Of a stretch of DNA of 29,339 nucleotides, positions 436-27,776 are shown in pieces. The translations under genes were made by a program, and so were the position numbers. The stretch's first letter is position 1, and the number at the start of each line of letters is the position of its first letter. The notes under the pieces are model-generated. The model made no database searches and was not told the DNA's origin. It saw nothing but the letters and a program-made list of their open reading frames with translations. Where the stretch lies: positions 1 through 29,339 of the IMG/VR virus record IMGVR_UViG_3300027777_000109; one strand, given 5' to 3'. Origin of the DNA: a virus.

Positions 436-466
436 AAAAAAATGGACTAGGTTTTTACGCTAGTCC
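436..466 (-). terminator. Intrinsic terminator between the Q-like gene and the late genes (tR'-like)
   Basis: Read on the minus strand, GGACTAG and CTAGTCC form a perfect 7-bp stem (arms 460-466 and 444-450) with a 9-base loop. One A and then seven consecutive T (442-436) follow. It lies about 60-90 bases after the predicted start of the 534-562 promoter and just before the Shine-Dalgarno sequence of the first late gene. It would stop both early read-through and basal late transcription unless antitermination occurs. Confidence 0.8.
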
Positions 467-533
467 GAACCCACGGAGATGAGTTGAATGTCGGATTGCA
501 TATCATACAGACGTGCGAAGTCCAACTGTTGTA

Positions 534-562
534 ATATTACCACACTTTTAAGAAAAAGTCAA
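534..562 (-). promoter_or_regulatory. Strong sigma70-type late promoter (pR'-like)
   Basis: On the minus strand TTGACT (557-562) and TAATAT (534-539) are separated by exactly 17 bases. Each matches the sigma70 consensus at five of six positions. The -10 lies inside a perfect 10-base palindrome, GTAATATTAC (531-540). A second -10-like hexamer, TATGAT (502-507), sits about 20-25 bases after the expected transcription start, which recalls the sigma-dependent pause elements of lambdoid late promoters. The transcript would run directly into the terminator at 436-466. Confidence 0.75.
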
Positions 563-566
563 ATAC

Positions 567-893
567 TTAATATAGATTTTTCTCTGTCAATCTTTTTTGT
601 AACATTACCAAAGCTGAATCGTAATAGTTTTCCAATACCTTAATGTCCATCATAGACTTTTGACCCAGGTATACAATGTAGATAGAAGTCTTTTGTGGCG
701 TAGGCAGATCGTCTATTACTTTGTCTACGGCTCTAGCTGCATCTCTATCTACTTCATCGCCTAAATCCTCAAAGCTATGTAAACCCCCTGACATGAATCC
801 TGTTGACTTTGATTTGTATCCTAGCTTGTTGTTATCAAACTTCATAAAGTCCCTCCACAGATCAAGGTAATAAATGACACGGCCAGCATCCAT
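567..893 (-). CDS. Putative Q-like / RinA-like late transcription regulator (108 aa)
   Basis: The N-terminal half has the pattern YYLDLWRDFMK...LGYKSKSTGFMSGG. The C-terminal half (about residues 55-105) looks like a sigma-region-4-type helix-turn-helix: VDKVIDDLPTPQKTSIYIVY, then a helical YDSALVMLQKRL. Small phage proteins of this shape sit at the end of early operons and are sometimes annotated as antitermination Q. The ATG overlaps the RusA stop (TAATG), with GAGGA upstream. It is the last gene of the early operon and directly precedes a promoter-terminator pair, which is the strongest support for a late-switch role. Sequence similarity alone would leave it hypothetical. Confidence 0.6.
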   Translation of the reverse strand: MDAGRVIYYLDLWRDFMKFDNNKLGYKSKSTGFMSGGLHSFEDLGDEVDRDAARAVDKVIDDLPTPQKTSIYIVYLGQKSMMDIKVLENYYDSALVMLQKRLTEKNLY

Positions 894-3152: not shown

Positions 3153-3461
3153 TCAATCCTGTAAGTAAATTCCATGTTCAGCAGCATAGCGTTCTACCCT
3201 GTCCATGAAGTTGTTAAGTTCTTCCACCGTTAAATCAGCAGTCCCACGTAAACTATATACTGTTTTCCCATTAGTGACAACCTCATTGTAACCAAGCCAG
3301 CGATCCTTCATTACAATTTTCCACCACATCGCATGGTGTAACAATCCGTCAGCGCCCTTTACCTTTTCAGAGATAGCTTGAAACAATAAATGCAGTCGAT
3401 TGTTCTGAGGATTACTTCTTCTTGCGATTTGCCCGCAAGTCGGGCATTTTGAATGCGACAC
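3153..3461 (-). CDS. ninB: NinB / lambda Orf-like recombination mediator (102 aa)
   Basis: NinB (Orf) helps load recombination proteins onto SSB-coated DNA. The core RRSNPQNNRLHLLFQAISE is followed by HHAMWWKIVMKDRWLGY and the end TADLTVEELNNFMDRVERYA. Together they match NinB proteins, which share the SxxQN start and the 'aaehGv' C-terminus (here AAEHGIYL). The predicted start is a GTG at 3461 with GGAGGT eight bases upstream. The N-terminus carries an extra CPTC pair that is unusual and would vanish if translation began further in. It overlaps the upstream gene out of frame by 50 bases. Confidence 0.8.
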   Translation of the reverse strand: MSHSKCPTCGQIARRSNPQNNRLHLLFQAISEKVKGADGLLHHAMWWKIVMKDRWLGYNEVVTNGKTVYSLRGTADLTVEELNNFMDRVERYAAEHGIYLQD

Positions 3462-3600: not shown

Positions 3601-3758
3601 TGTAATGTTTCCGTAAAGTTATCAAAGTCTACAATCTGAAATGTTAATGGATTATCAAAACTAGCATTTTCCATAAAATCATCTAAATCGTATTGTGAGA
3701 TAAAGTTCATGGTGCATACAAAGTTATCTTGTGAATCGTAAACAAAAACTAATATCAT
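3597..3758 (-). CDS. Small acidic hypothetical protein (53 aa)
   Basis: A 53-codon frame begins MILVFVYDSQDNFVCTMNF, ends NFTETLQ, and is strongly acidic and aromatic. It overlaps the helicase stop at its start and the next gene's ATG at its end, both through ATGA. This stop/start coupling on both sides is the main reason to accept it. It lies between the helicase and NinB. No family is recognised. Confidence 0.6.
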   Translation of the reverse strand: MILVFVYDSQDNFVCTMNFISQYDLDDFMENASFDNPLTFQIVDFDNFTETLQ

Positions 3759-9871: not shown

Positions 9872-10057
9872 ATGAAAACAATAGTTAATACAGATGTAAA
9901 AATTCCAAAAAAAATGTTAGATGCACTTACATTATTTGAAACATATTGTGTAGCTAATATGAAAAAAGAAACTACTGAAGACGAAGTAAAATCTTTTTTG
10001 GAAAGTTTGTTTAGTAAAGGATTTGCTAATAAATTTAAATCAGAATATTTATATTAA
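9872..10057 (+). CDS. Last gene of the plus-strand early operon, hypothetical (61 aa)
   Basis: It begins MKTIVNTDVKIPKKMLDALT and ends SKGFANKFKSEYLY, with AGGAAA upstream of the ATG. It is helical and basic at the end. The stop (TAA, 10055-10057) overlaps the stop of the convergent late gene on the other strand. No family recognised; there is no terminator after it. Confidence 0.7.
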   Translation: MKTIVNTDVKIPKKMLDALTLFETYCVANMKKETTEDEVKSFLESLFSKGFANKFKSEYLY

Positions 10058-11238
10058 TAGCCTAAAGCTTTTAACATATCTGCAGTTAATATTCCAGCGT
10101 AAGGTTTCATTTGCAAAGCTCTAATATCTTGTTGAGATGGATTTCTAGGATCAATAATTCCACGAGATTCAGCAGCATTAGGAAGCAATTGGAATGCAGA
10201 TAAATCTTTATCCAAAACTCCCAATCCTTGCCCTGGAACTCCTTTTGGATATGCTTTGTGTCCTGAACTTTGAATCATAGGTAAATCAGGAAATATTTGT
10301 CCTACATTTTGCAATCCAGAATCAGCCCCCATTAATTGGGATGGATCTGCCACAGCCAATCTTGCTTCTCCAATACTTAATCCACCCTCATTTCTGTATT
10401 TTTTATCAAGCATATTTTTTAATGCTTTTCGTGTTTGGTCCGAAGCATTCCTAAATTGGTCTATTCCTTCTTCAGAACCCATGCCTTTAAAATTTGGAAT
10501 AAAAGCTTTTATATCAGAATTAACATCTCTTTGAGCCGCCCTTCCCATGTTATTGTTCATATAACGAAGCATTGTTTCGCCTGTCATATTTGCAAAATCA
10601 CCGCCAGTTGGAGCCATTCGCCAAGGCATATATAATGGATTTTTCCCTGTAATATCTTTTAGCATTTGAGCATTTTTAATAATTGCATTAGATGGTGCTT
10701 TAGCTGAAGCCCATACTTGCCCTGGATTATTAAACATATAATTTTGGCCACCTTGCAAATCAACCCCAATAGGGACATCATTTATTGAATGCAATTGACC
10801 TACATTAGTTCTATCAGACATAGAAGTAATAAATGGATAGCCTTCGTAATCTGCAAGAGAAACTTTATTTTGAGCATGCTCTGGAACATCTACTTTTGTG
10901 GTTAAATTATTTAATCTTTGTTGTTCTAATTTTCTAGGATCAAATCTAGGATCAAATCCTAAATCTCCCATTTTTACTTCTTTTATAACTCCTCCTAATG
11001 AGGGGATAAAAGGCAATAATCCAACACCATTTAACAATGCACTAGCATATTTTTTATTCTTAACGTCATTAACTGCTTGTATACCTGATTGAATATCACC
11101 ACTAATAGGCATAAATGAATTAACAAACTGACCTGTTTCAGCTAAATCTACGTTAGGAATACCATTTTTAGTATACGGGTTTGTTTGGTTAGCCATTGGC
11201 ACTCGTAGTGCGTCTATAAGCTTTCTAACGTCTGCCAT
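10054..11238 (-). CDS. Large unknown protein at the end of the late operon, pretoxin-like N-terminus (394 aa)
   Basis: The N-terminus contains SGDIQSGIQAVNDVKNKKY and ALLNGVGLLPFIPSLGG. This pattern (helix, 'daykkgdy.gAaln..gllPfvP') is known from pretoxin-like segments of polymorphic toxins and phage polyvalent proteins. Residues of about 120-390 hold an uncharacterised domain with YEGYPFITSMSDRTNVGQL, VDLQGGQNYMFNNPGQVWAS and YMPWRMAPTGGDF, ending IRALQMKPYAGILTADMLKA. I recall similar blocks in internal proteins of aquatic phages but cannot name a function. It follows Rz (TAATG overlap) and is the last late gene. It may be an injected virion or effector protein. Confidence 0.7.
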   Translation of the reverse strand: MADVRKLIDALRVPMANQTNPYTKNGIPNVDLAETGQFVNSFMPISGDIQSGIQAVNDVKNKKYASALLNGVGLLPFIPSLGGVIKEVKMGDLGFDPRFDPRKLEQQRLNNLTTKVDVPEHAQNKVSLADYEGYPFITSMSDRTNVGQLHSINDVPIGVDLQGGQNYMFNNPGQVWASAKAPSNAIIKNAQMLKDITGKNPLYMPWRMAPTGGDFANMTGETMLRYMNNNMGRAAQRDVNSDIKAFIPNFKGMGSEEGIDQFRNASDQTRKALKNMLDKKYRNEGGLSIGEARLAVADPSQLMGADSGLQNVGQIFPDLPMIQSSGHKAYPKGVPGQGLGVLDKDLSAFQLLPNAAESRGIIDPRNPSQQDIRALQMKPYAGILTADMLKALGY

Positions 11239-11687
11239 TATTTCAACTCCAAGTTTTGTTTAATCCACTTTTGTAATTCTAACAATTGTAATACGTCATT
11301 AGCGCAGTCTACGGGCGAAGCTCCTTCGGCACTAGGTTCAACGCTTTTGGTTGTTCCATTAGCACCTTTGGCGGTGTCGGATAGGTCGGACACTTGACTG
11401 CTTGCGGGACTGACTGGCAACCACTTAACAGGACGATTAGAATAATAAGATTTAAGCGAGTCCACAGCATGAGCGTATTCCTTCGTAATATTTTCACTAA
11501 TAGTATGCTGATTCTTAACCAGCGCAGCATTTTTTTCTTCCTGTATGTGTGCATTAGCCTCTGTAAGCGATTTAAAGGTGTCATACGCCCGTTTTTCATG
11601 GCTATAACCCTCGTAGTATCCAAAGACAAAAATAATGGCCGTAGAGGCCACAATTACAATCTGCTTCCAATACATTGTCCAGATCAT
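11238..11687 (-). CDS. Rz: Inner-membrane spanin, Rz-like (149 aa)
   Basis: Rz forms the inner half of the spanin that fuses the two membranes in the last step of lysis. One N-terminal membrane span (QIVIVASTAIIFVFGYYEGY, about residues 8-27) is followed by a long periplasmic helix (HEKRAYDTFKSLTEANAHIQ onward) and a C-terminal region with one Cys. AAGGATACAAA gives its Shine-Dalgarno sequence inside the holin end. It contains the Rz1 gene in another frame (11309-11470), the classical nested arrangement, which confirms identity. Confidence 0.88.
   Translation of the reverse strand: MIWTMYWKQIVIVASTAIIFVFGYYEGYSHEKRAYDTFKSLTEANAHIQEEKNAALVKNQHTISENITKEYAHAVDSLKSYYSNRPVKWLPVSPASSQVSDLSDTAKGANGTTKSVEPSAEGASPVDCANDVLQLLELQKWIKQNLELK
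11309..11470 (-). CDS. Rz1: Outer-membrane spanin lipoprotein, Rz1-like, nested in Rz (53 aa)
   Basis: A frame shifted relative to Rz starts at ATG 11470, with AAGGA eight bases upstream. It encodes MLWTRLNLIILIVLLSGC, a lipoprotein signal with lipobox LSGC cleaved before Cys18. A short proline-rich mature part follows (CPTYPTPPKVLMEQPKALN). This is the standard Rz1 layout: lipid-anchored in the outer membrane and pairing with Rz. The upstream part of the open frame lacks a sensible start and is not needed. Confidence 0.88.
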   Translation of the reverse strand: MLWTRLNLIILIVLLSGCQSVPQAVKCPTYPTPPKVLMEQPKALNLVPKELRP

Positions 11688-11899
11688 TTTGTATCCTTCT
11701 TTAAGTACATTCCGCTTCCTGCTCCTGCCATAATAGAACCCAGACCAATACCAAAGTCGGTGAAGCTAAAAGTATGATTAGCAATAACGTGAGTGACGCT
11801 GCACCAAAAAAACACCAAAGTGCCAGTTGCCGCAATCGTTTTAACAAGACAATACGTTTCATTATTTGGCTCGGTTAGTAAATCTTTAAGAAATTTCAT
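11684..11899 (-). CDS. Putative holin (71 aa, two membrane spans)
   Basis: Hydrophobic segments at about residues 19-40 (KTIAATGTLVFFWCSVTHVI) and 46-65 (SFTDFGIGLGSIMAGAGSGM) predict two membrane spans, followed by a short charged tail (KKDTK). The size and place, between the lysozyme and Rz genes, fit a holin that forms the hole releasing lysozyme. GGAGGGG precedes the ATG. Its stop overlaps the Rz start. No single holin family is certain. Confidence 0.75.
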   Translation of the reverse strand: MKFLKDLLTEPNNETYCLVKTIAATGTLVFFWCSVTHVIANHTFSFTDFGIGLGSIMAGAGSGMYLKKDTK

Positions 11900-12309
11900 T
11901 ACCCCTCCTTAATCATTAACGAGAGGCGTTTAGCTCTTGCTCCTACTTGAGTAGCCCATTTAGATTTGAGCATTGATTCAGAAGCCTCTGTATATTTACC
12001 CTCTTTAATCAGTCCGAGAGTTGTAGCGAATCCTAGCAGTCCTTTTAAGCCTAAATTAAAACACATATTGGTTAATGCTCTTTGTCTTACGTCAGACAAT
12101 GTTAATACCCACGGCAAGGCACTTGTAAGCCCCGCAAACGCTTTATTTATATCATTTAATAGTAGGAGGTCAATCTCGTCATCTGAGAGTCCTACGTCAG
12201 TTAAATTGCGTCCTATGCCAATGGTCATTTTACCGACTGTATCAACATAGGGCTTGTTACGTTTACCTTCGTCTATCGTTAATTCTTGCTTTAATACGTC
12301 AATATTCAT
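11899..12309 (-). CDS. T4-lysozyme-like endolysin, GH24 (136 aa)
   Basis: It would cleave the glycan strands of peptidoglycan. The catalytic triad of T4 lysozyme (Glu11, Asp20, Thr26) is found as Glu14 (IDEG), Asp23 (YVDT) and Thr29 (KMTIGIG) with identical spacing. The stretch DEGKRNKPYVDTVGKMTIGI is typical of the family, as is RQRALTNMCFNLGLKGL. There is no signal peptide or membrane arrest segment, so a canonical holin should be needed. The start overlaps the upstream zinc-ribbon gene (ATGA). Confidence 0.93.
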   Translation of the reverse strand: MNIDVLKQELTIDEGKRNKPYVDTVGKMTIGIGRNLTDVGLSDDEIDLLLLNDINKAFAGLTSALPWVLTLSDVRQRALTNMCFNLGLKGLLGFATTLGLIKEGKYTEASESMLKSKWATQVGARAKRLSLMIKEG

Positions 12310-12464
12310 TCTTTTCCTTTTAGATAAGCAAGATCCTCATCATTTAACATTCCAATAGAGTCGGTATCATAAAATTCACATTCCCCACAAACGTCAACCT
12401 CAATTTCATTTTCGTCTATTTCAAATGCATTTCCACACCAACTACAAATGCTTATCTTTTTCAT
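12306..12464 (-). CDS. Small zinc-ribbon-like protein (52 aa)
   Basis: A 52-codon frame begins MKKISICSWCGNAFEIDENE. The pairs CSWC (7-10) and CGEC (26-29) make a complete four-cysteine zinc ribbon, and the acidic end is DEDLAYLKGKE. It overlaps the secreted protein's stop at 12461 and the lysozyme start at 12309. Function unknown; small zinc ribbons can bind nucleic acid or protein. Confidence 0.7.
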   Translation of the reverse strand: MKKISICSWCGNAFEIDENEIEVDVCGECEFYDTDSIGMLNDEDLAYLKGKE

Positions 12465-12754
12465 GTATCAGGCTTCATTAAGAATACGTTAGCAGGAAGG
12501 ATTGTTTTATCGCCTTGAATCCATTGTATGACAATGTCATCTTTTTCGTGTGTAAAGCAGCCTGGCAATACTTGACCGTCTTTGCGCAAGGCTACTACAG
12601 CGAATTGAAACTCTTTAGAGATTGATTTAACAGGACACGCTATGCTAGAGATTCTGATCACTACGTTTTCATTGAACTGATACGAAAGAAACTTGTCCTC
12701 AGCGTTAGCATTAAGTGTAAAAAAAGCCGTTAATACGGCTAATGTCTTTTTCAT
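12461..12754 (-). CDS. Secreted or periplasmic small protein (97 aa)
   Basis: The start at 12754 is chosen since GGAG lies six bases upstream; a longer in-frame ATG at 12766 uses that same GGAG as codons. The N-terminus MKKTLAVLTAFFTLNANA is a Sec signal peptide with an Ala-x-Ala cleavage site before ED. The mature part has two Cys (IACPVKS and PGCFTHE) that could form a disulfide. It sits just before the lysis genes and may act in the periplasm during lysis or exclusion. No family recognised. Confidence 0.7.
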   Translation of the reverse strand: MKKTLAVLTAFFTLNANAEDKFLSYQFNENVVIRISSIACPVKSISKEFQFAVVALRKDGQVLPGCFTHEKDDIVIQWIQGDKTILPANVFLMKPDT

Positions 12755-12755
12755 C

Positions 12756-13538
12756 TTAATCTCCAAACTTATCTTTAAGATATTTCAATGTTAAAGGTAG
12801 CTCATCAAATCGTCCGTCACATACGTCATATAACATATAGCAACCACGAAAATGATTATTGCCCTGTGCGCCCAAATAGCTCTCATTATGTTCGTAACAT
12901 GAACCACAGATAATGGCAGTCATCTCAGAGCCGTCAGCTCGCATCCCATAAGCAATCTGTCTACCTTGCTGGTGTCCAGCAAAACAGCTCATGTGCTTTT
13001 TAGTTAGCAAGGCCTGTGCAGAACCAATCGGTCTACCCATAGCGCCTGACGTAAAATAGTGAGAGTAAGCAATACCGTCAATCGTAATCACTTCTAGAAA
13101 AGGGATCACTTCCCAGTCTTGATACGGAAGGTCATCTATAGAGATAAGTCCGTCTAGCTTACGATCTTCATTGACAGCACGAAGGATACGCTCCTCGTGG
13201 TTACCCAATGTTAGAACCATGCGAGGATGATATTGCTTGTCTTTGTTGCGTTTGGCTTTAGCATTGAACTCGTAGATAGGGATCAGTAACGCATCCATAG
13301 CCTCACGAGCCGCTTGAATATCTTTGTTGTAACTTCTGCCCTCGAATGACTTTTTGCCTACGTCATAAGAAGAAAGGGACTCCATATCAGCGAAGTCCCC
13401 TATACAAATAATTACGTCTGGTTTTTTAGCAACGATATATTTACCGATGCAGGTTAAGAATGAGAAATCATTTCCATCTTTGGCCTGTACGTCAGGCAAG
13501 ACGAAATGCGTCTTAGTGGGTGGCGTCTGGTAGCTCAT
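12756..13538 (-). CDS. Calcineurin-like metallophosphoesterase (260 aa)
   Basis: The metal-site motifs appear in order: PDVQ (15-18), GDFAD (47-51), GNHE (112-115), a single His in YSHYF (about 160) and GHQQ (about 188-191). The usual first motif is DxH; here Gln replaces His, which is common in phage 'PDxQ' versions but could alter metal binding. The start at 13538 avoids a long run into the 58-aa gene upstream, whose coding it still overlaps by 26 bases. The substrate is unknown; phage members include nucleases, phosphatases and ligand-cleaving enzymes. Confidence 0.82.
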   Translation of the reverse strand: MSYQTPPTKTHFVLPDVQAKDGNDFSFLTCIGKYIVAKKPDVIICIGDFADMESLSSYDVGKKSFEGRSYNKDIQAAREAMDALLIPIYEFNAKAKRNKDKQYHPRMVLTLGNHEERILRAVNEDRKLDGLISIDDLPYQDWEVIPFLEVITIDGIAYSHYFTSGAMGRPIGSAQALLTKKHMSCFAGHQQGRQIAYGMRADGSEMTAIICGSCYEHNESYLGAQGNNHFRGCYMLYDVCDGRFDELPLTLKYLKDKFGD

Positions 13539-13689
13539 AATAAAGTTGTAAGTCCTCATCAGAAAATAGAATAATTCTCGTTCCATCTTCTATATACATT
13601 ACAAACTCATCATTGTCAATACCTGCTTCAACAATAGTTTGACCTACCATGCGTTCTATTAATGATTCTACTGCTTCTTGTTCACTCAT
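13513..13689 (-). CDS. Small acidic hypothetical protein (58 aa)
   Basis: A 58-codon frame begins MSEQEAVESLIERMVGQTIV, contains FVMYIEDGTRIILFSDEDLQ and ends YELPDATH. It overlaps the upstream stop (ATGA) and the start of the metallophosphoesterase. The beta-hairpin pattern 'v.iedGt.I.f..edL..yyE' recurs in small phage proteins; function unknown. Part of it lies in frame-overlap with a spurious N-terminal extension of the next gene. Confidence 0.65.
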   Translation of the reverse strand: MSEQEAVESLIERMVGQTIVEAGIDNDEFVMYIEDGTRIILFSDEDLQLYYELPDATH

Positions 13690-13919
13690 TTATCAGCCTT
13701 GTGGTCTAGTTTTTCAAAAATACGGTTAAGTGAGGCTTCTATTCTATCTAGTCTAGCTTCTAAATCTTCTTTGCGAACATAGTGTGTAGGCAAATCTACT
13801 TCAATTTGTTTCATGTCAGATTTAAGGTCTTGAACTGCATCCCATAATTGTCTAGCAAACCAGCCTAAAACAGAGAGAACTGCACCGATGATTAAATTGA
13901 TGATGGATTGGTCTTGCAT
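13686..13919 (-). CDS. Membrane-anchored coiled-coil protein (77 aa)
   Basis: An N-terminal span (residues 6-25, IINLIIGAVLSVLGWFARQL) is followed by a heptad-rich helix (KEDLEARLDRIEASLNRIFE). GGAG precedes the ATG, which overlaps the fibre gene's stop. It resembles small one-span phage proteins placed between fibre and lysis genes. A second holin or pinholin-like role is possible but unproven. Confidence 0.75.
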   Translation of the reverse strand: MQDQSIINLIIGAVLSVLGWFARQLWDAVQDLKSDMKQIEVDLPTHYVRKEDLEARLDRIEASLNRIFEKLDHKADK

Positions 13920-15676
13920 TATTTAACTCCATATACCAAGATTGAGCCATTATCAAAACTTCCCGCACCTGCTGCAAAAGTAATAGATGTACTTGCAGTA
14001 GATAGTCCAGAATTGTTTGTATAAGAAGTAGCAGTTCCGCCAGTATCTGAAGTGGTTGCTGTGTAATATCCAGTTGTTAAATCAATTAAAACAGTTCCAT
14101 ACATATTTGATGCGCTAGAAGGAGTTATATTATTGCTATTTAATTTAATATTGCTAGCACTTGAAATTGAAGCACCATTTAATTGACATTGAATTTGTTT
14201 ATATCCTGTTAATGTTAATCCTGTTAATGATTGTGATGTACCACTTGTTGTTGTAATAGTACCTAATAATGTCATGCCACCTGTTGATGGCGTAGGAGCT
14301 ACACTTGCCCAAATGTTAGTTGTCGCTGCTCCTGTACCAGAACCTACAGCAGTAGCAGTAAATACTGTGCCTACAGATGGCTGCAAAGTAATTGTAGTAG
14401 AAGCTACTGTTTGTGATGCTGATACTGTGTAAGTTCCTGTTCCACCTGTACCTGTGCCAAGAGCAGTAATATAAGTACCAGCAGTTACACCTGTTCCTGA
14501 TATATATGTGCCTACAGCTAAAGTTCCTGAGCCGACTGCTGTTACGGTAAGCGTAGTTGTAGCAATAGAACCTGTTACAGAGCCTGACGCAGTTGCACCT
14601 ACAGTAGTCCAATCAGTAGACCCGATTGTAGATAATGTGTATTGAGTACCTACAACAAATGAACCTGCGTTTACAGTTGATACTGTTTGTGATGTTAATA
14701 CGTTACCTGTAGCTCCTGCATATACAGGTTTTAATCCTGATGTACCATTGCCTAAAAACAAGTTATTTAACAAGAATGAATTAGTACCTGTGCCGCCATT
14801 AGCTACGTTTAAAGTACCATCTAATACTAAATTGCCTGTTGAGCCAAGTATCCCAAATGTATGTGTGCCTGAACCCGCAGCAGTCGTATTAATCGCTGCA
14901 CCACCACTAGTTAGCGATACGTTAAATGTCGTAACACTAGAGTTTACAACATAATAAGTCGTATTAACGCTTAAACCTGTTGGCAAAGTGCCTGTAGTAA
15001 ACAACTCAATTTGTGTGTTGTTAGCAGGTAAATCACCACTAGAAACAGTGAATACGGCAGGACTAGCAAATGAAATTGTGACTGATTTAGTAGGTGTAGT
15101 GTAAGTTTTTAAACCTGTAGCACCGCCACTCCATGACGTAACTAATGTATTTACATTTAGATAAGGGTTAAGTAACTGAAATTCTGTGCCATCATAAACA
15201 ACTTGCACTACTGCGCCTGATTGAATATCTCCCGCCACAAGAGCAGTTGTTCCTGTTTTAGTTACAGACTTAACCCCAATAGAGTTAATATTTAGCGTAC
15301 AAGCACCTGTATTGGTCGATGGAGCTACAAAAAAGAAACGTTGACCTGTTACATAGGCTGACATACCTAAAGCCGCTGTAGCCGTCATAACGTTAGTGCC
15401 AGCAGCACTTGTTAAGTAAGTAAAAGCTGAATCTTGAATCTGACCTGCACTAGCGTATTGCGTTCTAACTGTTGCATCTGCTACGCCTGTATGAGCAAAT
15501 CCGCCCATAGGCAAGTTACCTGTAGGTGTAGTTTGACCATCAGATGAGATTGATTGTGTTAAGGCTGTTGCCATATCATTAAACGTATTATTCGTTGTTG
15601 TAGATGATATAGTAGTGCCTGTGACTACAGGATTACCTGCTGGAAGTACGTATGTACCTGCTCCGTTACGTGCCAT
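13919..15676 (-). CDS. Tail fibre protein with T7-like N-terminus and inserted beta domains (585 aa)
   Basis: The N-terminus [20 protein letters not shown], then [20 protein letters not shown] and [20 protein letters not shown], is a familiar phage tail-fibre anchoring region. A stalk follows (residues of about 85-180). Next come Thr/Gly-rich beta domains: [14 protein letters not shown] (231-244), the [12 protein letters not shown] linker, and a domain (338-451) that appears split by a second one (365-432). The C-terminal part (470-585) may be the receptor tip. No S74 chaperone is present. AAGGAG precedes the ATG. It mediates host recognition; the receptor is unknown. Confidence 0.85.
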
Positions 15677-15776
15677 TTATTGCTCTCCTTGTGGTATAAT
15701 CTTATTATGGATTATATTGATTTTCTTTGGATTAAATTAATTGTTGTTACTGTTGTATGCTTTGTAATAGGATTTA

Positions 15777-17420
15777 TTATTGAGCTATAAGAGTAGGGTC
15801 AACAATTGGCAAGCCTTTACGCAAAGCTTCCGCTAATTTACTATTTTTTGTGGCTTTATTTTCTACAAAGTTTTTAACAGCATTGCTATGTAAAGCCGCA
15901 TTTAATCCTCGACCAGCAGCAATTGAGCCAATAAGCGTTGGTATTCCTGCGCCTAAACCAACAACTGAACCAGCCAAAGCTCTTTGCATTGAGCTATGTT
16001 GACTTTCTCTTTGTTTAACAAACTGAGCTGCAATATCTGCTAATGTTTGTAACTCAGGATTATTAATATTTTTCATATTAGCTAAACGAGCTACAGAAAT
16101 TCCACCTTCTGCGCCATTTTGAGCTAAATTTTCAAGAGATAACATGTTGCCATATTGTTGACGAGTTTTTGCAAAAGCTTGAGCTTGATCTGGCCCTAAT
16201 GAACGATTTAAAGCATCCATTAGTTTCTTTTTTAAATCACGAGCATAAAATGCTTCAGGGCTATTTCTATCTGAAATAATATCCAAACGTTTTTTAATGT
16301 TATAAGCTGCTTGGCCGTCAATTTCACCAGTTTGATTGGCTTTTGCAAGAATTTCATCAACTTGATTTTTAATAATTTTAGCTTGATCAGAGCCAAGTTC
16401 TTTTCCTGCTGTATCTGCTGATTGAGATAAATCATTAAGAAAAGCATCGTCAACTTTAACTGTATTGTTTTTTAATGTATCTTCAAACTTACCGCCCAAA
16501 TCAGTTTTAGCATTGCGTAATGCTTGCGTAATATTGTGATTGTCTTGACCAAATAAATTAGATGCGGCTTTGTTAAGTTGTTGCTCCATTGCATGCTCTA
16601 CTTCACCACGTCCGCTAAAAGGAACATAATTAAGTGTAGATGCTACAGCGTTCATAAATTTACTATTAGTTAATCTATCAGCAGGAATATCAATTCCTAA
16701 TGCTTCTGCTTTATCTGCTAATGCACGAACTTCAGGAGATACCCCTTGCCCTCTAATTGCTTTAGCTAAAGCACCGCCTGTAGCACTAGCAGCTTTTCCT
16801 AATACTGGAATAGCAACACTAATACCAGCACCTTGAACAGCATCTTCAGGATTAATTGCAGCCGTAGAAGCACCGCCAGTTACAGCGCTACCTAAAGCTC
16901 TTGCAGCAAGACCGCCAACTCCTTTAGCGCCATTTACATCCATACCGCTAGATTCAATAGCTTTAATTAATGTTGGTGAATTTTTAAGAAGCGGAACATA
17001 TTTAGCTGCTTTTCCTAAAACACCACCCACAGGAGCAGTCATTCCAATGTCACCTATTACTTCACCTGTTTTAAATAAACCAGATTCAGGATTTACACCT
17101 TGCTCAGCAAATGTTTTTTCTAATTGTTGTCTATTAAACTCAGAGATAGGTTGACCATTATGAGTCATTCCTAATTTATCAGCAATTGGCCCTAATACAT
17201 TGCTTGCTGTAGTAACGGCAGATTTAAGGCCTCCCATTGCCATTGTTTTTAATGGATTAGCTGGTTGAGCTAAATTCATTGAAGGAATTGGTGTAGAATC
17301 TTCCCATGAAGAAGGTTGATTGCCAGTTCTTATTTGTTGAATACGAGCTTTAATTACATCATCAGGAGTTCCATCAGGTATCCCACGAAGCAATATTCCA
17401 TCTTTAGTTTGAATGTCCAT
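15777..17420 (-). CDS. Internal virion / DNA-ejection-type protein (547 aa)
   Basis: The ATG at 17420 overlaps the upstream stop (TAATG), with GGTGG upstream; a TTG start six bases earlier is less likely. The N-terminus MDIQTKDGILLRGIPDGTPD then DVIKARIQQIR is a short domain seen at the front of many phage structural proteins. A glycine/alanine-rich middle (GGLAARALGSAVTGGASTAA) and amphipathic helices follow, ending with a hydrophobic ALAGSVVGLGAGIPTLIGSI segment (about 495-520) suited to membrane insertion. Together with its two upstream neighbours it forms the likely set of ejected proteins. Confidence 0.7.
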   Translation of the reverse strand: MDIQTKDGILLRGIPDGTPDDVIKARIQQIRTGNQPSSWEDSTPIPSMNLAQPANPLKTMAMGGLKSAVTTASNVLGPIADKLGMTHNGQPISEFNRQQLEKTFAEQGVNPESGLFKTGEVIGDIGMTAPVGGVLGKAAKYVPLLKNSPTLIKAIESSGMDVNGAKGVGGLAARALGSAVTGGASTAAINPEDAVQGAGISVAIPVLGKAASATGGALAKAIRGQGVSPEVRALADKAEALGIDIPADRLTNSKFMNAVASTLNYVPFSGRGEVEHAMEQQLNKAASNLFGQDNHNITQALRNAKTDLGGKFEDTLKNNTVKVDDAFLNDLSQSADTAGKELGSDQAKIIKNQVDEILAKANQTGEIDGQAAYNIKKRLDIISDRNSPEAFYARDLKKKLMDALNRSLGPDQAQAFAKTRQQYGNMLSLENLAQNGAEGGISVARLANMKNINNPELQTLADIAAQFVKQRESQHSSMQRALAGSVVGLGAGIPTLIGSIAAGRGLNAALHSNAVKNFVENKATKNSKLAEALRKGLPIVDPTLIAQ

Positions 17421-18748
17421 TACCAATCCACCGTTCTGACTTTAGGAGCAGCTTTAGAAAGAGGAGTATATTCATCACCAAAAGAACCAGCAATTGAATT
17501 ATTTACTCCAGCATAATTTGCTCGCAATCCTTTTAATTTTGTTAATGTTGTATTTTTATCATCATTTGGTTGCGGAATTAATGGTGCAGTAGAAGCATTT
17601 TCACTAGGTGTTACAGCACCGCCTAATAAATCATGACGTTTTACAGAAGCAACACCATTAACTGCTTGTCTTACTCCAACGCTATCAGGATAACGTCTTG
17701 ACATATAGGTATTGCCTAATCCTGCTTGCAATCCAAAATATTCTTTAGGAGCATTTTCTACTGCCGCAATTGCATCATCAATTTGTTTTAAACTTGCTTC
17801 ATTTGCAGAATAGGCTTGACGAGCAGTAGGAGGAATTTCTTTTAATGGTTTATCAGCAGGGCCACCTTTTAATTGAGTTAATATAAAATTGCCATTTTCA
17901 TCTAGTTTAGTTCTTCCAGTAGTATCTTTTGCAAATCCATAACCTGAAGGAGGTTGAGAACCAGCTTCAGGAGCTATGCGAGTTTCTTTAGCAATAGCAG
18001 CTTTATATGTTGCTCTTAATGGGTCATTAGGTGCAAGTTTATTCATCTCGCTTGTTAACTTACCAATAGTTGATTCGCCACCTTGACTAGCTGTTGTTTC
18101 TTTTTTAATAGCATCTTGATATTGTGGAATGCGTGGATCATTAGGATTTGCTGATTGAATTTGTTGCAATTCAGAAGTAAGTTTACCTAATGTAGAAAAT
18201 GTAGTTTTATCTTCTTTATCAGGAGCAGAATAAAGGACTTTTCCTGATTTAGTAACAAGATTTTTTCCAACAACCATTGGAGTATCTTCTTTAAATTGAT
18301 TTGCAAATTGAGTTTCAAGCATTTTAGGAAGCATCTCAGGCATTGCTGAACCAACTTTAGCCATATATTCTTGTTGAGAATATGGTTGTTGCGTAGTTTG
18401 TGTAACTCCAGGTATACCACCAGCATCTTGATAATCTACAGGAGATTCAACTTGCTTTCCTTTTGACAAATCAGACAATAATGCACCAAGTTTAGCTGAT
18501 TTAGCAGTTTGATAGCCACCATATTGCTTCATCGCTTCATTTTCTTGTTGACCAGCTATATATTTATTAGCTAATCCTGCCAATTGTTGAGTCCATGAAG
18601 GAGCTACATAATGACCTGATACCATCTGACCTTGAGGCATCTCTTGTTGACGTAAAGCATCAGCCATCGCTAGTTTACGTTTAAGCTGAAGTTGAATCAT
18701 TGCATCATCAGCAGGAATTCCGCTTAAGTCTTGAGCGTTGTAGTCCAT
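17420..18748 (-). CDS. Internal virion / ejection-type protein (442 aa)
   Basis: The N-terminal region ALRQQEMPQGQMVSGHYVAP then SWTQQLAGLANKYIAGQQEN is a recurring block in podophage internal proteins. The rest is helical, rich in Gln, Ala, Lys and Thr, with internal repetition of IGKLTSEMNKL / LGKLTSELQQI and PNDPLRATYKAAIAKET / PNDPRIPQYQDAIKKET. Those two copies (about residues 185-215 and 223-257) are a tandem repeat of about 34 residues. It sits between the S74-tagged protein and the 547-aa protein. Confidence 0.7.
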   Translation of the reverse strand: MDYNAQDLSGIPADDAMIQLQLKRKLAMADALRQQEMPQGQMVSGHYVAPSWTQQLAGLANKYIAGQQENEAMKQYGGYQTAKSAKLGALLSDLSKGKQVESPVDYQDAGGIPGVTQTTQQPYSQQEYMAKVGSAMPEMLPKMLETQFANQFKEDTPMVVGKNLVTKSGKVLYSAPDKEDKTTFSTLGKLTSELQQIQSANPNDPRIPQYQDAIKKETTASQGGESTIGKLTSEMNKLAPNDPLRATYKAAIAKETRIAPEAGSQPPSGYGFAKDTTGRTKLDENGNFILTQLKGGPADKPLKEIPPTARQAYSANEASLKQIDDAIAAVENAPKEYFGLQAGLGNTYMSRRYPDSVGVRQAVNGVASVKRHDLLGGAVTPSENASTAPLIPQPNDDKNTTLTKLKGLRANYAGVNNSIAGSFGDEYTPLSKAAPKVRTVDW

Positions 18749-18750
18749 AT

Positions 18751-20103
18751 TTAAGCCCCTAACATTGCGTAATTAACAAGTTTATAGCCATCTTCATGTG
18801 TAGCTACAGCTTCAGGTATTACTTTTTCAACTTCTTGCGCCATAACGCCAATATGTGAGCCATGACCCCATGTATCTTTATATTCAGGCTTGTAATTAAA
18901 CTTGTAAATGTTAATGCCATTGTTAAGTGCGCCAATTTTACTAATATTTTCTTTAATGTTTTGGTCAGAACCAATTGCTCCCCATGCACTAGGCATAGAT
19001 AATCCTGTAATTCCAGTACCTGCTGCTGCGCCACCGCCTAATGCGCCTAATCCACCTAACGCCCCACCTGATAATAATGTTCCACCAAGTCCTAATAATC
19101 CACCCATAAAATTGCCTGATGCTGCATTTTGAGCATTATAATTAGCTAATTGTGAATTATAAGTATTTTGAGCTGCGCCTGTTAAATCTGGACCAGCAAC
19201 CTGTGGCATTTGAGCAGTATTAACACCTTGAGGATTTTGTACTTGTGCGCCTGTTTCTAATGAATTAATCATGTTGATTGGATTATTCATATTTTGCAAT
19301 GCTTGGTTGTAAGCTTGTTGGTTAGCAGTTAACCCTACACCCATACCACCAGTAATTGCTGATGTGCGTTGATCGTTTTGACCTTGAGCAAAGTTACGAT
19401 AAGCATTGTCATACGCTTGAGTGCCAGGTACAACACCTTGATTAGCCATTTGAGATTCAAAAGACTGTTGAGCTTGTTGCATTTGTGGCTGAAGTCTACG
19501 CATAATTGCATCAGAATATGTTTCGCCAGGATTAATGCCATAACTAGGAAGCTGTGACATATCTACGCCACCTTGACCGTTTCTAGATTTATTTAGCAAA
19601 TCTTGAGCATAACCAAGTTTGCTTGTACTTAATCCTTCTTTTGCATTAAGAATAGCTTGTTCAGCAGGGCTTAATGTTTGTGTAGCAGTCCATTGATTAG
19701 AGCCTTTAGTATAATCAGCAATATTAGGTGCTTTTAAATTATTATAATTGTTTTTACTAGAAGTACCACCACCTATGCCAAAAATACCACCATTTTGACC
19801 ATAGTTAATTCCTTTAGAAGCCCCATATGAATTAGAAGCTGCTAATTGGTTATTGTAAGCCTTTAAAGCTGCATCATAACCTGCTTGGTCAATAGTAGGT
19901 GAACCTTGAGAATAAGTAATATTTCCGTAAGGAGTTACTTGATTGACACGATTAGCTTCTGTTGTATATTTAGCTAAAGCTAAATTATCTGCTGCTTGTT
20001 GTTTTGCTAGAGAAGTATAATCAGGAGTTGCTGGGGCTGAACCACCTTTGCCACCATTGTAACCAGGGTGTTTTAATACACCTAAAAATTTACTATTAAA
20101 CAT
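18751..20103 (-). CDS. Virion protein with C-terminal S74 chaperone domain (450 aa)
   Basis: The last 72 residues, beginning SDQNIKENISKIG and including GVMAQEVEKVIPEAV and VNYAML, are a peptidase S74 intramolecular chaperone. Ser379 and Lys384 correspond to the Ser-Lys catalytic dyad. The body is glycine-, Gln- and Asn-rich: PDYTSLAKQQAADNLALAKY, TTEANRVNQVTPYGNITY and a poly-Gly stretch GGLGALGGGAAAGTGITGLS. This suggests an internal or fibre-like assembly protein rather than a classical receptor-binding fibre. GGAG precedes the ATG. It follows the acetyltransferase and precedes the ejection-type proteins. Confidence 0.78.
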   Translation of the reverse strand: MFNSKFLGVLKHPGYNGGKGGSAPATPDYTSLAKQQAADNLALAKYTTEANRVNQVTPYGNITYSQGSPTIDQAGYDAALKAYNNQLAASNSYGASKGINYGQNGGIFGIGGGTSSKNNYNNLKAPNIADYTKGSNQWTATQTLSPAEQAILNAKEGLSTSKLGYAQDLLNKSRNGQGGVDMSQLPSYGINPGETYSDAIMRRLQPQMQQAQQSFESQMANQGVVPGTQAYDNAYRNFAQGQNDQRTSAITGGMGVGLTANQQAYNQALQNMNNPINMINSLETGAQVQNPQGVNTAQMPQVAGPDLTGAAQNTYNSQLANYNAQNAASGNFMGGLLGLGGTLLSGGALGGLGALGGGAAAGTGITGLSMPSAWGAIGSDQNIKENISKIGALNNGINIYKFNYKPEYKDTWGHGSHIGVMAQEVEKVIPEAVATHEDGYKLVNYAMLGA

Positions 20104-20499
20104 TTATTTACTCCAATTTAACATACGGCAGTTTTCAGGCCATAAAGTCATAATTAATAAATCACCATTACGACCTGCATCTTTGAGGGTAGCCTCGATG
20201 ACAAATCCTATGTGCTTGTTAAGTTTTATTGCTTTGTAATTATCTGCTTCAACAGTTGCTGTAAAACGTTTTACTTTAGCAATGTTAAAAATGTAATTTG
20301 CTACTTGAAACCAATACTCTCTAGGAGGGTTAGCATCTATGCGTTGATGACCAAACATATTATTGCCGTTAAAATCTTCAAACGCAGTTCCAGCAATTAA
20401 GATGCCATCTTTTTCCCAACCAACCGCTGTCATTCCTTCTGTGAAATGCCCAATCCCTTGCATAGTCCAATGAGCAACATCATCACCAGAAACCATCAT
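20104..20499 (-). CDS. GNAT-like acyltransferase in the tail module (131 aa)
   Basis: The start at 20499 is chosen because AGGAG lies eight bases upstream; the longer frame begins in the previous gene. The protein has the phage GNAT-like pattern HFTEGMTAVGWEKDGILIAG, an NGNNMFGHQRID centre, then RFTATVEADNYKAIKLNKHI and GFVIEATLKDAGRNGDLL. In GNAT folds the 'N..A....lGF..eg' segment helps bind acetyl-CoA. Similar small genes sit beside podophage tail genes; the target may be a virion or host protein. At 131 aa it is near the minimum for the fold. Confidence 0.75.
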   Translation of the reverse strand: MMVSGDDVAHWTMQGIGHFTEGMTAVGWEKDGILIAGTAFEDFNGNNMFGHQRIDANPPREYWFQVANYIFNIAKVKRFTATVEADNYKAIKLNKHIGFVIEATLKDAGRNGDLLIMTLWPENCRMLNWSK

Positions 20500-20539
20500 A
20501 ATAAATGCTCCTATAATATGGCTTGACTTTGAAACATGT

Positions 20540-22060
20540 CTAAAGTATGGCGCCACCCTCAATAACTAAATCTGTAGATACCCATCTTACCTGAATACCT
20601 GAGCATGATGTTTTTACAACAGGTGCGCCATAATAACCAACACCATTTAATCCTTGCCAATTCTGTAATACAGATAATCCACCGCCCCATGTAGAGGCAT
20701 CCCATATAGCAGTATCCCATTTAGCATAGGTACTTGGAGTATAGGTTAAAGATGTTGTAGGGATTTCAATATTGAAATCAATGTTTACGCCAGCAAATAT
20801 AGAAGGTTGACCATCAGTTCTAAAAATGGGGCGTGACATAGTAAAGCGTTTTAAAGCACCTGCATTACCAAAGTTTGTAAATGCTTGTAATGCTGTGCCG
20901 GTAATGTTATTTACATCATCAATATTTCCATTATAAGCATGGGCTACATAACCATTGCCACCAAAGTAAGGCTCATCGTTGAACATTTCCATGCAATTAG
21001 CGTTCCAGCCTGTGTAGTTACACCAAGCCCCTGTAATGGTATTCATTACATATTGTTGCTGATTGTTGCCTTCTTGCACAGGTACATTTAGCCACAATTG
21101 ATTGATTGTAGGAACGTACATAGTCTGCCAACCAAAGTTACTTGCATAATTGGTGACTGCTTCTGAAATAGCGTACTGAATCTTATCTGTAATAGCTACT
21201 CTAGGTTGTACACGAGATGATTGCAAAGCGCCTGACAATGGCACTACGCCATCTTGCGTAATTAAAAGCATATCGCCAGCATATTTATACATGCTTCTGC
21301 GACCTACAGGAGAGCCAATATCCCACACACCTACCATTGCCCATGTTGTTGTGCTTGTAGGGTCTGTGCCTTGATAGACGATTACTTGACCTTTAGATGT
21401 AACAATTACATAGTGGTCATTAACGCCTGTACCTGCATCAATAGTCCATGTGCCGTGAGCAACAATGTAACCGCCTTTAGTAGCCAAAGCAGAAACATCA
21501 ACTGAATTAACTGCTCCTGCAATAGAATTTACAGGTAAATACCATGTTTTAAGACTATTTTTGCCAACAAAGAATTGACGTTGAGCATAAAGAATAGGGT
21601 CTAGCAAATCAGTAGAAGTTACCCCTGTAATGGTAGGTGTAGACCATGCAGAGCCATTATAATTGCGTGGGGCATCTACACCATTAGCCATTGATATAAA
21701 GTTGCCACCAGCCGTTGCAATGTTGCAATAACCCCATCTAGCATTAGTTAATCCTGTTACTACCGCTGCTCCTACTGCACCACCTGACGATACGTCATAA
21801 ACAGATGTGCCAGCAATAGCAAATAGTTTATTAGTAGCTGCACCTGAGTAAGCCATGATGGTTTCTACTTGACCTGTAATGCCTGTAGCCCATTTAGTAT
21901 AACCATTACGCAAAATACATTCTGTTGTAGCAGGATACCAATTTTCTAAAGTAACTGCTTCATTTGGTTGCATAGAGGTAAGTGAATCTCTAGCGTTCCA
22001 TCCACCTACAGGAGCTGGCATTGATACTGGCTGTGATACAGCTCTTTTAGCTTGTGCCAT
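20540..22060 (-). CDS. Tail hub / packaged-DNA stabilisation protein, P22 gp10-like (506 aa)
   Basis: The N-terminus PVSMPAPVGGWNARDSLTSM then QPNEAVTLENWYPATTECIL is the conserved start of phage stabilisation proteins. The body consists of beta-propeller-like repeats (YSGAATNKLFAIAGTSVYDV, GTWTIDAGTGVNDHYVIVTS, GDMLLITQDGVVPLSG). It would seal the neck after packaging and form the tail hub. GGAGG precedes the ATG. It is directly after the adaptor gene, the expected order. The length is close to P22 gp10 (472 aa). Confidence 0.82.
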   Translation of the reverse strand: MAQAKRAVSQPVSMPAPVGGWNARDSLTSMQPNEAVTLENWYPATTECILRNGYTKWATGITGQVETIMAYSGAATNKLFAIAGTSVYDVSSGGAVGAAVVTGLTNARWGYCNIATAGGNFISMANGVDAPRNYNGSAWSTPTITGVTSTDLLDPILYAQRQFFVGKNSLKTWYLPVNSIAGAVNSVDVSALATKGGYIVAHGTWTIDAGTGVNDHYVIVTSKGQVIVYQGTDPTSTTTWAMVGVWDIGSPVGRRSMYKYAGDMLLITQDGVVPLSGALQSSRVQPRVAITDKIQYAISEAVTNYASNFGWQTMYVPTINQLWLNVPVQEGNNQQQYVMNTITGAWCNYTGWNANCMEMFNDEPYFGGNGYVAHAYNGNIDDVNNITGTALQAFTNFGNAGALKRFTMSRPIFRTDGQPSIFAGVNIDFNIEIPTTSLTYTPSTYAKWDTAIWDASTWGGGLSVLQNWQGLNGVGYYGAPVVKTSCSGIQVRWVSTDLVIEGGAIL

Positions 22061-22062
22061 TA

Positions 22063-22980
22063 CTAGCCTCCGTAGTTTGCGTCAGGTATATTTTCGTATC
22101 CAATTAACACGTTAGCGGCTCTTGGCGCAAAGGATAGTGTAGCAGAACCTTGATCGTTTGCTTTAGAGATATTCAATTCCATATCGTAGTCACGTTGGTA
22201 TGAACTTGAGTCAAAGCCCTTCACCTCAAAGTATTTCTTCTTTAAGGCAAGCACCATTAAACGGTCAGGGAATATGCAAGTGTCGGTATCTAATACAAAG
22301 CTTGTCTGAGGGACGCCAGCAGCGCTATCAGCCCATGCGTTAGAAATATATTCGTAGCCTAGATACTCGTTAGTAGAGATAATAGGCCATATTTGAAACT
22401 CACCGCCCATGATACGATAACGCATACGTGGGCCTGTTGAGATATAGCTAGACTTCAAGAACTGCCATTGTTGAGGTGTTTCAGGGCCTAGCATTTCCCA
22501 GCGTTTAGACTTGTCGTAGTGTGTACGATCTGTCTGTCTATCGTAGTCGCTAGGGAGTGAATATTTAGTTTGACCTAAAGTCAAATAAACATTGCCAGTA
22601 GCCGTTGGTAATTGTGAAACTGTTACGCTTGTAGAGGTTGGTGTGCCAGTGATATAAGTATCTTGATTGATACCTGTGCCTGTAATCATCCAATTGGTTG
22701 CGCCTACAGCGTTTATTGCTGTTACTACAGAAGCATCTAGCCCTGTAATTGTAGATGAGCCTGTAACTACATCACCATAAGATTGTTGGTATTGTGTGTA
22801 GAACCTATATTCACGGTTTAAAGCTTCCCACGGGAACTCTCTTGACAACTCATACCCTGCTGCATTAATTAAATAGTTTAATTGAATAACATCGGTAGAA
22901 GTATTACCTGCTACCTGTGTAGGTACAGCCAAGCCCATTTCACCTGTGGCCTGTTGTACGAGTTGTAAAAGAGTTGCCAT
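22063..22980 (-). CDS. Head-tail adaptor / tubular protein A-like (305 aa)
   Basis: Residues 1-62 (MATLLQLVQQATGEMGLAVP, LINAAGYELSREFPWEALNR) and 138-305 (KYSLPSDYDRQTDRTHYDKS, RYRIMGGEFQIWPI) match the podophage adaptor or tail tubular A type. Between them, residues 73-130 look like an inserted beta domain (GSSTITGLD, MITGTGINQDTYITG, VTVSQLPTATGNVYL) that most shorter homologues lack. It joins the portal to the tail hub. AAGGA precedes the ATG. Confidence 0.78.
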   Translation of the reverse strand: MATLLQLVQQATGEMGLAVPTQVAGNTSTDVIQLNYLINAAGYELSREFPWEALNREYRFYTQYQQSYGDVVTGSSTITGLDASVVTAINAVGATNWMITGTGINQDTYITGTPTSTSVTVSQLPTATGNVYLTLGQTKYSLPSDYDRQTDRTHYDKSKRWEMLGPETPQQWQFLKSSYISTGPRMRYRIMGGEFQIWPIISTNEYLGYEYISNAWADSAAGVPQTSFVLDTDTCIFPDRLMVLALKKKYFEVKGFDSSSYQRDYDMELNISKANDQGSATLSFAPRAANVLIGYENIPDANYGG

Positions 22981-22992
22981 TATTTTTCCTTA

Positions 22993-23577
22993 TTAAGCTG
23001 CGCTTTTGGCTTTTTCCTTTGGCGCTGATTTTACTTGTGCAGCAAGTTCTTCCAACTGACGTTTCATGGCAGCAATCTCATCATCACGTTGACGTAAGGC
23101 TTCTGCTTGTTGTTGTACGACTGCTGAATCTTTAGCATTAGCTAAAAACGCTTTAGCTTTATCACGGAAGGATAGAGGACTCATGCCTACCATCATACCA
23201 ATAGAGCCAATCTGCTCATCTGAAGCCGTTGCTACTTGTTCTACGGTATAGAACTTAAAGTGCTTTAATTCGCTTGCTTGAGCTGCATTTAAGATAGGCC
23301 AATCTTTTAATAGAGTGCCTTGAATTTGGTCACCACCGTCAGACTTCTCGTTTTGATACATTGCCCATTGAACAGGGAAGCGTCTTTTATCTTCATCCTT
23401 TGCAAAGGTATCAATAATAGTTAAGCGATCACCAGGAACTTCAATCCTAACAAAGTCAGCCATAAACTTAATCGGTCTGCCTTCTGCCAAGCTTTGAAAC
23501 TCGTTGTCCATCTCTTTACTATAAAATTTTACTGCTAGTCTTGAATCGGGGTTGTTTAAATCTGTATCAATAGCCAT
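22993..23577 (-). CDS. Hypothetical head-region protein with C-terminal coiled coil (194 aa)
   Basis: It begins MAIDTDLNNPDSRLAVKFYS and has a globular part of about 125 residues (FMADFVRIEVPGDRLTIIDT, FPVQWAMYQNE). A helical end follows (AEALRQRDDEIAAMKRQLEE LAAQ) with a Lys/Ala tail. It lies between the capsid/decoration genes and the adaptor. Similar proteins are seen at this place in podophages of this type, but the function is not known. TTGGAG precedes the ATG. Confidence 0.72.
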   Translation of the reverse strand: MAIDTDLNNPDSRLAVKFYSKEMDNEFQSLAEGRPIKFMADFVRIEVPGDRLTIIDTFAKDEDKRRFPVQWAMYQNEKSDGGDQIQGTLLKDWPILNAAQASELKHFKFYTVEQVATASDEQIGSIGMMVGMSPLSFRDKAKAFLANAKDSAVVQQQAEALRQRDDEIAAMKRQLEELAAQVKSAPKEKAKSAA

Positions 23578-23611
23578 TTAGTTCTCCAAAGTGGTTTGGG
23601 GTTTGTAGGTA

Positions 23612-23661
23612 ACTCTCAAAATAAAAGATACCTAGAAACCCATCCCCGAAGGGATGAGAGT
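23612..23661 (-). promoter_or_regulatory. UUCG-tetraloop hairpin between head genes
   Basis: In the 92-base gap after the 96-aa head gene, the minus-strand RNA has CATCCC-UUCG-GGGATG (23641-23656), a perfect 6-bp stem closed by the very stable C(UUCG)G tetraloop. Outer arms ACTCTCA/TGAGAGT (23655-23661 and 23612-23618) could enclose it. No immediate T-run follows, so a terminator is not clear. It may reduce or protect the abundant capsid messenger from decay. Confidence 0.5.
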
Positions 23662-23669
23662 CTTAACTA

Positions 23670-23960
23670 TTAAACTGAAGCTTTACTGAACCAACCGTAA
23701 TCGCCTGTTACCATACCTGTAGCTGGAGATGTGTAAGAACCACCTGAAGCTGTTACCAAGAATGATGTAGCGTTTACTGTACATGCTGTTGTTGAAGCTG
23801 TGATAGTTGCGTTAGCTTTACCGAATACATAAAGCAAGCCGTCTGAACCCCATACTTGAACACCAAGCAATTGGTTGATAGGATAACCAGCAGTGATTTG
23901 AACTGCGGTTACTGTGTTTACTAAGTCGATGCCCACTAAAGGGGTTACTGAATATGCCAT
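23670..23960 (-). CDS. Small head protein, possible decoration protein (96 aa)
   Basis: It begins MAYSVTPLVGIDLVNTVTAV and is beta-rich and neutral, with ANATITASTTACTVNATSFL and a C-terminal TGMVTGDYGWFSKASV. It follows the capsid gene by 11 bases, with AGGGAAA as Shine-Dalgarno sequence. Size and place suit a capsid decoration or stabilisation protein. No family match is certain. Confidence 0.7.
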   Translation of the reverse strand: MAYSVTPLVGIDLVNTVTAVQITAGYPINQLLGVQVWGSDGLLYVFGKANATITASTTACTVNATSFLVTASGGSYTSPATGMVTGDYGWFSKASV

Positions 23961-23971
23961 GATAATTTCCC

Positions 23972-24967: not shown

Positions 24968-24983
24968 AATAATCTCCTAAGTG

Positions 24984-25991: not shown

Positions 25992-26010
25992 TTGACTTCC
26001 TTTATGTTAA

Positions 26011-26376
26011 TTAAGCTGAAACGATAGCAATCCAGTTCGCGCCACCGATTGATACGAATTTTGCTGTCTTACCTGCTGCAACTGCTAAAGCAGCGTTAGC
26101 TGAACCTGAACCAATTGCACCACCTGTAGAAGGCCATACGTTGATTGAGTTAGCTGTGTTGTTAGCAATAAAGTAGCTATCGCCTGATTGCGCTGTAGAA
26201 GGCAATGTTGGGCCGTTAGATGCTGTAGAAGTTGAATACACTACAATGTCTGTTGGCAAGGTTAATGTGTTTTGTGAAGCACCTGTAGCCGCTTGTGCTG
26301 TTGTTACGAAACCTGTAATGGCATCGGATGTTAATCCTGGAACGCCAGAACCGTTTAAGTTTACTGTTGTTGTCAT
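26011..26376 (-). CDS. Beta-rich structural protein (121 aa)
   Basis: It begins MTTTVNLNGSGVPGLTSDAI, is rich in Thr, Ala, Ser and Gly, and ends AKFVSIGGANWIAIVSA. The second half (DSYFIANNTANSINVWPSTG) follows a pattern seen in phage head-fibre or tail-fibre-like beta domains ('s..IaN.t..si.VyP..g..i'). AGGAG precedes the ATG. It lies ahead of the scaffold gene, which suggests a capsid-associated fibre or decoration protein. Confidence 0.68.
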   Translation of the reverse strand: MTTTVNLNGSGVPGLTSDAITGFVTTAQAATGASQNTLTLPTDIVVYSTSTASNGPTLPSTAQSGDSYFIANNTANSINVWPSTGGAIGSGSANAALAVAAGKTAKFVSIGGANWIAIVSA

Positions 26377-26385
26377 TTAATACTC

Positions 26386-27133: not shown

Positions 27134-27141
27134 AATTTATC

Positions 27142-27767: not shown

Positions 27768-27776
27768 GATTTTTCC

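Follow-up and report, generated by a model that had tools for sequence, protein, structure and literature searches.

A putative Q/pR′/tR′-type late switch with a conserved leader in freshwater phages

We analyzed a 29.3-kb stretch of DNA from a freshwater phage (hereafter the window), a linear record that ends just past the first late genes. The locus at 436–893 on the minus strand appears to be a Q/pR′/tR′-type late switch, in which the gene for a small Q-like protein is followed by a promoter, a short leader and an intrinsic terminator. This reading, which derives from sequence comparison and modeling, is well supported because the promoter-terminator pair is unique in the window, relatives of the protein are annotated as antitermination proteins, the top fold match for the model of a homologue is Q21, the gene order follows that of prophage DLP12, and the cassette recurs in relatives. 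We further consider it quite probable that the switch includes a Q-like protein, a sigma-dependent pause at TATGAT, recognition of approximately +1 to +27 rather than of the −35/−10 spacer, and terminator readthrough. The initial annotation had called the locus lambda-like. Its Q/pR′/tR′ arrangement, sigma4-like C-terminus and −10-like hexamer are retained here, whereas a separate protein family and lambda-like loading are not.

Late promoter, terminator and their occurrence in relatives

The pR′-like late promoter is located at 534–562(−) and consists of TTGACT (562–557) and TAATAT (539–534) separated by a 17-bp spacer, with TGG, containing the TG of an extended −10, directly before the −10 hexamer. 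The −35 and the extended −10 are kept in relatives. A tR′-like intrinsic terminator at 436–466(−) was recognized by its pattern and by folding, and is composed of a 7-bp stem (GGACTAG, 466–460, and CTAGTCC, 450–444), a 9-base loop, A443 and seven T residues (442–436). The folding energy of the terminator stretch was −11.7 kcal/mol (z −6.3 against shuffles), and that of the whole leader was −28.7 kcal/mol (z −4.1 against shuffles). A standard scanner, which accepts loops of up to 8 bases, missed this terminator. When a pair was defined as an extended −10 promoter with a stem and T-run in the next 40–130 nt, scanning the two strands of the window yielded a single occurrence, namely this locus; the mean expectation was 0.017 pairs per shuffled window (1 in 60 dinucleotide shuffles). 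A 9/12 promoter match alone is at the chance level. The unique pair, together with the same cassette in relatives, supports the lambda Q-pR′-tR′ order of the initial annotation, whose coordinates for the ORF, promoter, TATGAT and terminator were all exact.

The first gene past the terminator (258–419(−)) encodes a 53-aa protein with no assigned function and also stands first in two relatives, L002 and L003. The second late gene (70–249(−)) encodes 59 aa. In L003, the terminator is followed by the 53-aa gene, the 59-aa gene, a probable small terminase gene and then the large terminase gene, and in L002 the 53-aa gene leads to a terminase identified using Pfam. Structural-type genes at 10054–29339 of the window lie on the same strand as the Q-like gene. 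An inverted repeat, CATAAGA/TCTTATG, is located at about 40–62(−), shortly before the next late gene begins, and a similar short inverted repeat is common to L005, L007, L009 and L026. In L006, an Rfam int-alpA RNA (RF02996, 50.1 bits) was found at 3678–3745(+), immediately past the late terminator.

Almost every freshwater relative with sufficient sequence has the promoter-leader-terminator cassette behind the Q-like gene, in some cases with an inserted gene between the two. The search of relatives for the pair, which the initial annotation had recommended, thus found the layout in dozens of them with altered promoter spacers and terminator stems, and the layout is kept at 53–82% protein identity. 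We also scanned for the leader pattern without reference to the protein, with 8 of the contigs already known from the protein search. The Q-like gene was upstream in 29/29 loci having enough sequence; the 30th locus has only ~100 bases of upstream sequence. Because the loci are related, this count reflects co-inheritance in a single group of phages and does not amount to 29 independent events, and the conservation is partly inherited from the common ancestor of the relatives. Pattern matches in L131 and L132 were rejected as chance, as neither locus showed a Q-like gene, a promoter or a terminator.

In regards to the more distant phages, the layout follows the Q gene of ctXG6705 (35% protein identity) as the sole such pair found in 41 kb. 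Venkman phage (L080), a cultured relative, keeps the gene, but a search of its whole record, including the stretch behind the gene, gave no promoter-terminator pair. The late promoter was not placeable in Venkman, whose late genes are on the strand opposite the Q-like gene. A relative with the gene and lacking the pair had been named beforehand as evidence against the switch; Venkman corresponds to this case in part.

In L002 (3412–3963(−)) and L004 (3319–3879(−)), the Q-like gene and the late promoter are separated by what appears to be an endonuclease-type gene in the opposite orientation. Its product has a sigma4-like helix-turn-helix and matched Sigma70_r4 at 3.1e-7 in L004. Where this gene is present, the edge of the insert supplies the promoter −35. 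Insert-like sequence also follows the Q-like gene in L011, L014, L051, L053, L056 and L058; the insert was read as protein in L002 and L004 only.

The Q-like protein and its gene neighborhood

The Q-like antiterminator gene (567–893(−)), assigned from its ORF, its relatives, and models with fold matches, encodes 108 aa. The protein gave no significant sequence match in Pfam, PHROG or the PDB, and no match to the lambda Q families in Pfam or PHROG up to E 10. A scan of bacterial genomes gave no relatives, and relatives in viral contigs exhibited 36–82% identity. Two relatives belong to named phages, both at ~35% identity: Venkman gp37, annotated as “antitermination-like protein”, and a ctXG6705 protein, annotated as “phage antitermination protein Q”. 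The Venkman homologue matched PF06530 (Phage_antitermQ) weakly, at 16.4 bits against a curated cut-off of 26 bits. The window protein had no PF06530 match, and no member of its group reached the cut-off; the protein is therefore not to be filed as a PF06530 member. A profile comparison, as called for by the initial annotation, was performed using hhalign against a PF06530 alignment built here, and the match was collinear over residues 6–69 but weak (E 0.0033, probability 9.7%).

QuuD of prophage DLP12 is a clear PF06530 member with a sequence match to Q21 (7.6e-7). The window contains genes for NinB (3153–3461(−); PF05772, phrog_72), an HNH/RecA-dependent-nuclease-like protein in the position of DLP12 ybcO (1269–1562(−); PF16786, PF06147), and, immediately before the Q-like gene, a RusA resolvase (893–1276(−); PF05866, 1.8e-12). 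The resulting order, from NinB to HNH nuclease, RusA and the Q-like gene, matches ybcN, ninE, ybcO, rusA, ylcG and quuD of DLP12.

The predicted structure of the window protein (pLDDT 75.6) comprises an N-terminal helix (residues 3–21), a disordered loop (about 22–41), and a three-helix sigma4-like part (41–61, 65–76 and 84–104). Its fold matches in the PDB are mostly sigma region 4, which is the best match for residues 41–108, in agreement with the sigma-region-4-like C-terminal end proposed earlier. Against Q21 (6p1a), 89 residues were aligned over 1–108 with a Z of 6.3, the longest alignment among the better matches, and Q21 was the top match for the model of a homologue, L026 (56% identical, pLDDT 78), with a Z of 8.1 over 98 residues at full length; four Q21 entries matched the L026 model at full length with Z values of 7.0–8.1 (7.0–7.2 for those other than the top), and such scores are, by the tool's own warning, near background for helical proteins. 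The Q21 match gains credibility from spanning the whole protein and from the gene context, which is an independent line of evidence.

Q21 with 21pR′/tR′ (6JNX, 6JNY, 6P18–6P1C) resembles the window system in its full-length fold, as predicted for the window protein, and in the order of promoter, −10-like hexamer and terminator before the late genes. It differs in length (162 aa, compared with 108 aa), and the two proteins have no significant sequence match. PF06530 proteins, represented by QuuD, share the neighborhood of NinB, nuclease, RusA and Q and the weak collinear profile match, whereas the window group scores below the family cut-off. Lambda Q with pR′/tR′ shares the functional layout, but no sequence match was found, and lambda Q is reported to be structurally different from Q21 (PMC6606751). 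These comparisons indicate that Q21/PF06530, rather than lambda Q, is most likely the family to which the 108-aa protein is very distantly related, and that the protein probably works like Q21. The earlier suggestion of a distinct antitermination family is corrected accordingly: no direct family match was obtained, but the protein is most likely not wholly separate from the known families.

The loading region and the leader RNA

The known Q-binding element of Q21, a direct repeat, is located in the −35/−10 interval (PMC6606751), as is the binding element of AlpA from Pseudomonas aeruginosa (PMC9371919). With the −10 as the alignment anchor, the relatives showed conservation of the −35 and the extended −10 but not of the spacer, which mostly contained 0.15–0.45 bits. 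When they were aligned on the GTC core, conservation extended from ~14 bases upstream to 8 bases downstream of the core end. This interval corresponds to roughly +1 to +27 when transcription is taken to start 7 bases past the −10. L011 and L013 share one Q protein sequence, and their spacers are identical at 4/15 positions whereas their leaders are identical at 34/36; L012, with the same Q protein, has a third spacer and a second leader class. Because the spacer is unconserved, also where the Q proteins do not differ, a common binding site within it is unlikely, and sequence comparison among the relatives gave no conserved Q-binding element between −35 and −10. These results suggest that the loading signal belongs to the initially transcribed region rather than to the promoter. 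The term lambda-like therefore fails for the loading site, where a transcribed element with hairpins is conserved instead.

The conserved start of the late transcript in the window (490–527(−), ~+1 to +38 from the putative start) contains a GG...GCACGTC core and hairpin H1 (z −2.3). The candidate sigma-dependent pause element TATGAT is located at 502–507(−), ~+21 to +26. An NANNNT hexamer was found two bases past GTC in 17/25 distinct leaders, and in ≤6 leaders in the other listed registers; L028 was counted as a miss in this tally and is a miss by eye too, and A2 or T6 is absent in about one third of the leaders. TATGAT, already pointed out in the initial annotation as −10-like, is thus part of a motif in fixed register, which fits a −10-like pause element.

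Since the divergent leaders align poorly, H1 was judged by per-sequence folding and H2 by a fixed-register test. RNAalifold predicted no pairs in an automatic alignment of all leaders, and an Rfam search gave no match for the leader. H1 folded better than its shuffled versions for most types of leader (mean z −1.9); it was weak in L051, L057, L060 and L062, with no gain over shuffles in the last three. The outer arms of H1 differ in sequence between leader types, and their pairing is retained. A pseudoknot resembling that of putL, considered by eye for H1, was dropped because its first stem is broken in several class I leaders. In regards to H2 (468–485(−)), which carries the loop box AUCUCCG (480–474), 98% of the cells were paired in nine main-group sequences, with double changes in 4/6 pairs, in comparison with 5–46% for slid versions. 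H2 thus exhibits covariation. Its stem is missing in L051, L056, L057, L062 and L028, which still have the box; AUCUCCG is nearly invariant in the window and relatives even without the surrounding hairpin.

HK022 putL is ~70 nt long and contains two stem-loops just downstream of the promoter, with an NANNAT hexamer at +23 to +28 that may pause polymerase (PMC9378689). The layout of the window leader clearly resembles that of putL RNA, with a pair of predicted hairpins where the transcript begins, a −10-like hexamer close to the putL position, and a terminator downstream. Unlike the window system, putL is protein-free and belongs to an early promoter, and sequence homology between the two is not established. 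The stem-loops of HK022 put RNA bind the β′ zinc-binding domain, and the window leader has two predicted hairpins. A literature search, limited in coverage, gave no account of such a leader.

Proposed mechanism and alternatives

The Q-like protein is most likely a Q21-like processive antiterminator that loads at the leader pause. Early transcription of the minus strand would yield the 108-aa protein last. Host polymerase would initiate at the 562–534 promoter, synthesize a leader of ~92 bases and stop at 466–436. The Q-like protein, with its predicted sigma4/Q21 fold and a flexible loop where Q21 forms the RNA nozzle, would join the polymerase at a sigma-dependent pause on TATGAT, and the loaded polymerase would read through the terminator into the terminase and the remaining late genes. 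AlpA likewise loads at a sigma-dependent pause with a terminator downstream, but from an element between −35 and −10; the recognition signal proposed here would lie upstream of the −10-like hexamer and overlap it, within the transcribed stretch. The leader hairpins probably aid loading or retention. The Q-like protein may read the leader as DNA, as RNA or as both.

A tentative alternative is a hybrid system joining both known modes, a Q protein acting on DNA and a put RNA acting by itself, in which a Q21-fold protein is loaded via the structured, put-like RNA leader of the late transcript; H1 and H2 would bind polymerase, and the protein would act on or with this RNA rather than on a DNA element. 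The covariation of H2, the folding of H1 with its differing but paired outer arms, the z of the window leader, and the putL-like placement of two hairpins at ~+1 to +60 and the hexamer at +21 to +26 point in this direction. It is doubtful nonetheless, as a number of relatives lack the H2 stem and four have a weak H1, putL needs no protein whereas the gene is always coupled to the leader here, and neither an Rfam match nor homology to putL links the two.

The sigma region 4 match of residues 41–108 and weak Sigma70_r4_2 matches in two relatives would also suit a sigma-like phage protein that activates the late promoter by recruiting polymerase, the hairpin being incidental or a partial terminator. 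We regard this as unlikely: with a near-consensus −35 and an extended −10 an activator should be unnecessary, a terminator with altered stems is present in nearly every relative whose sequence extends there, and the Q21 match reaches the N-terminal helix. It is very improbable that the gene is unrelated to the terminator and that the pair insulates early from late transcription or produces a small RNA. Venkman, with no pair near its gene, and the relatives with other genes between the gene and the promoter are consistent with such a separation, but the 29/29 coupling argues against it, and a promoter just before a terminator would silence the late genes without an antiterminator, barring other promoters.

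Antitermination by a Q21-like protein loading at the leader pause offers a likely function for a gene that is unannotated in this group of aquatic phages. For lambda Q, Q21 and AlpA, the sequence recognized is described as a DNA element within the −35/−10 interval, whereas the signal of the window group appears to be transcribed. A group that has the Q fold and the terminator but a transcribed signal and RNA hairpins would show how the loading site can change, and its leaders, which accompany near-identical proteins, provide a natural series for testing.
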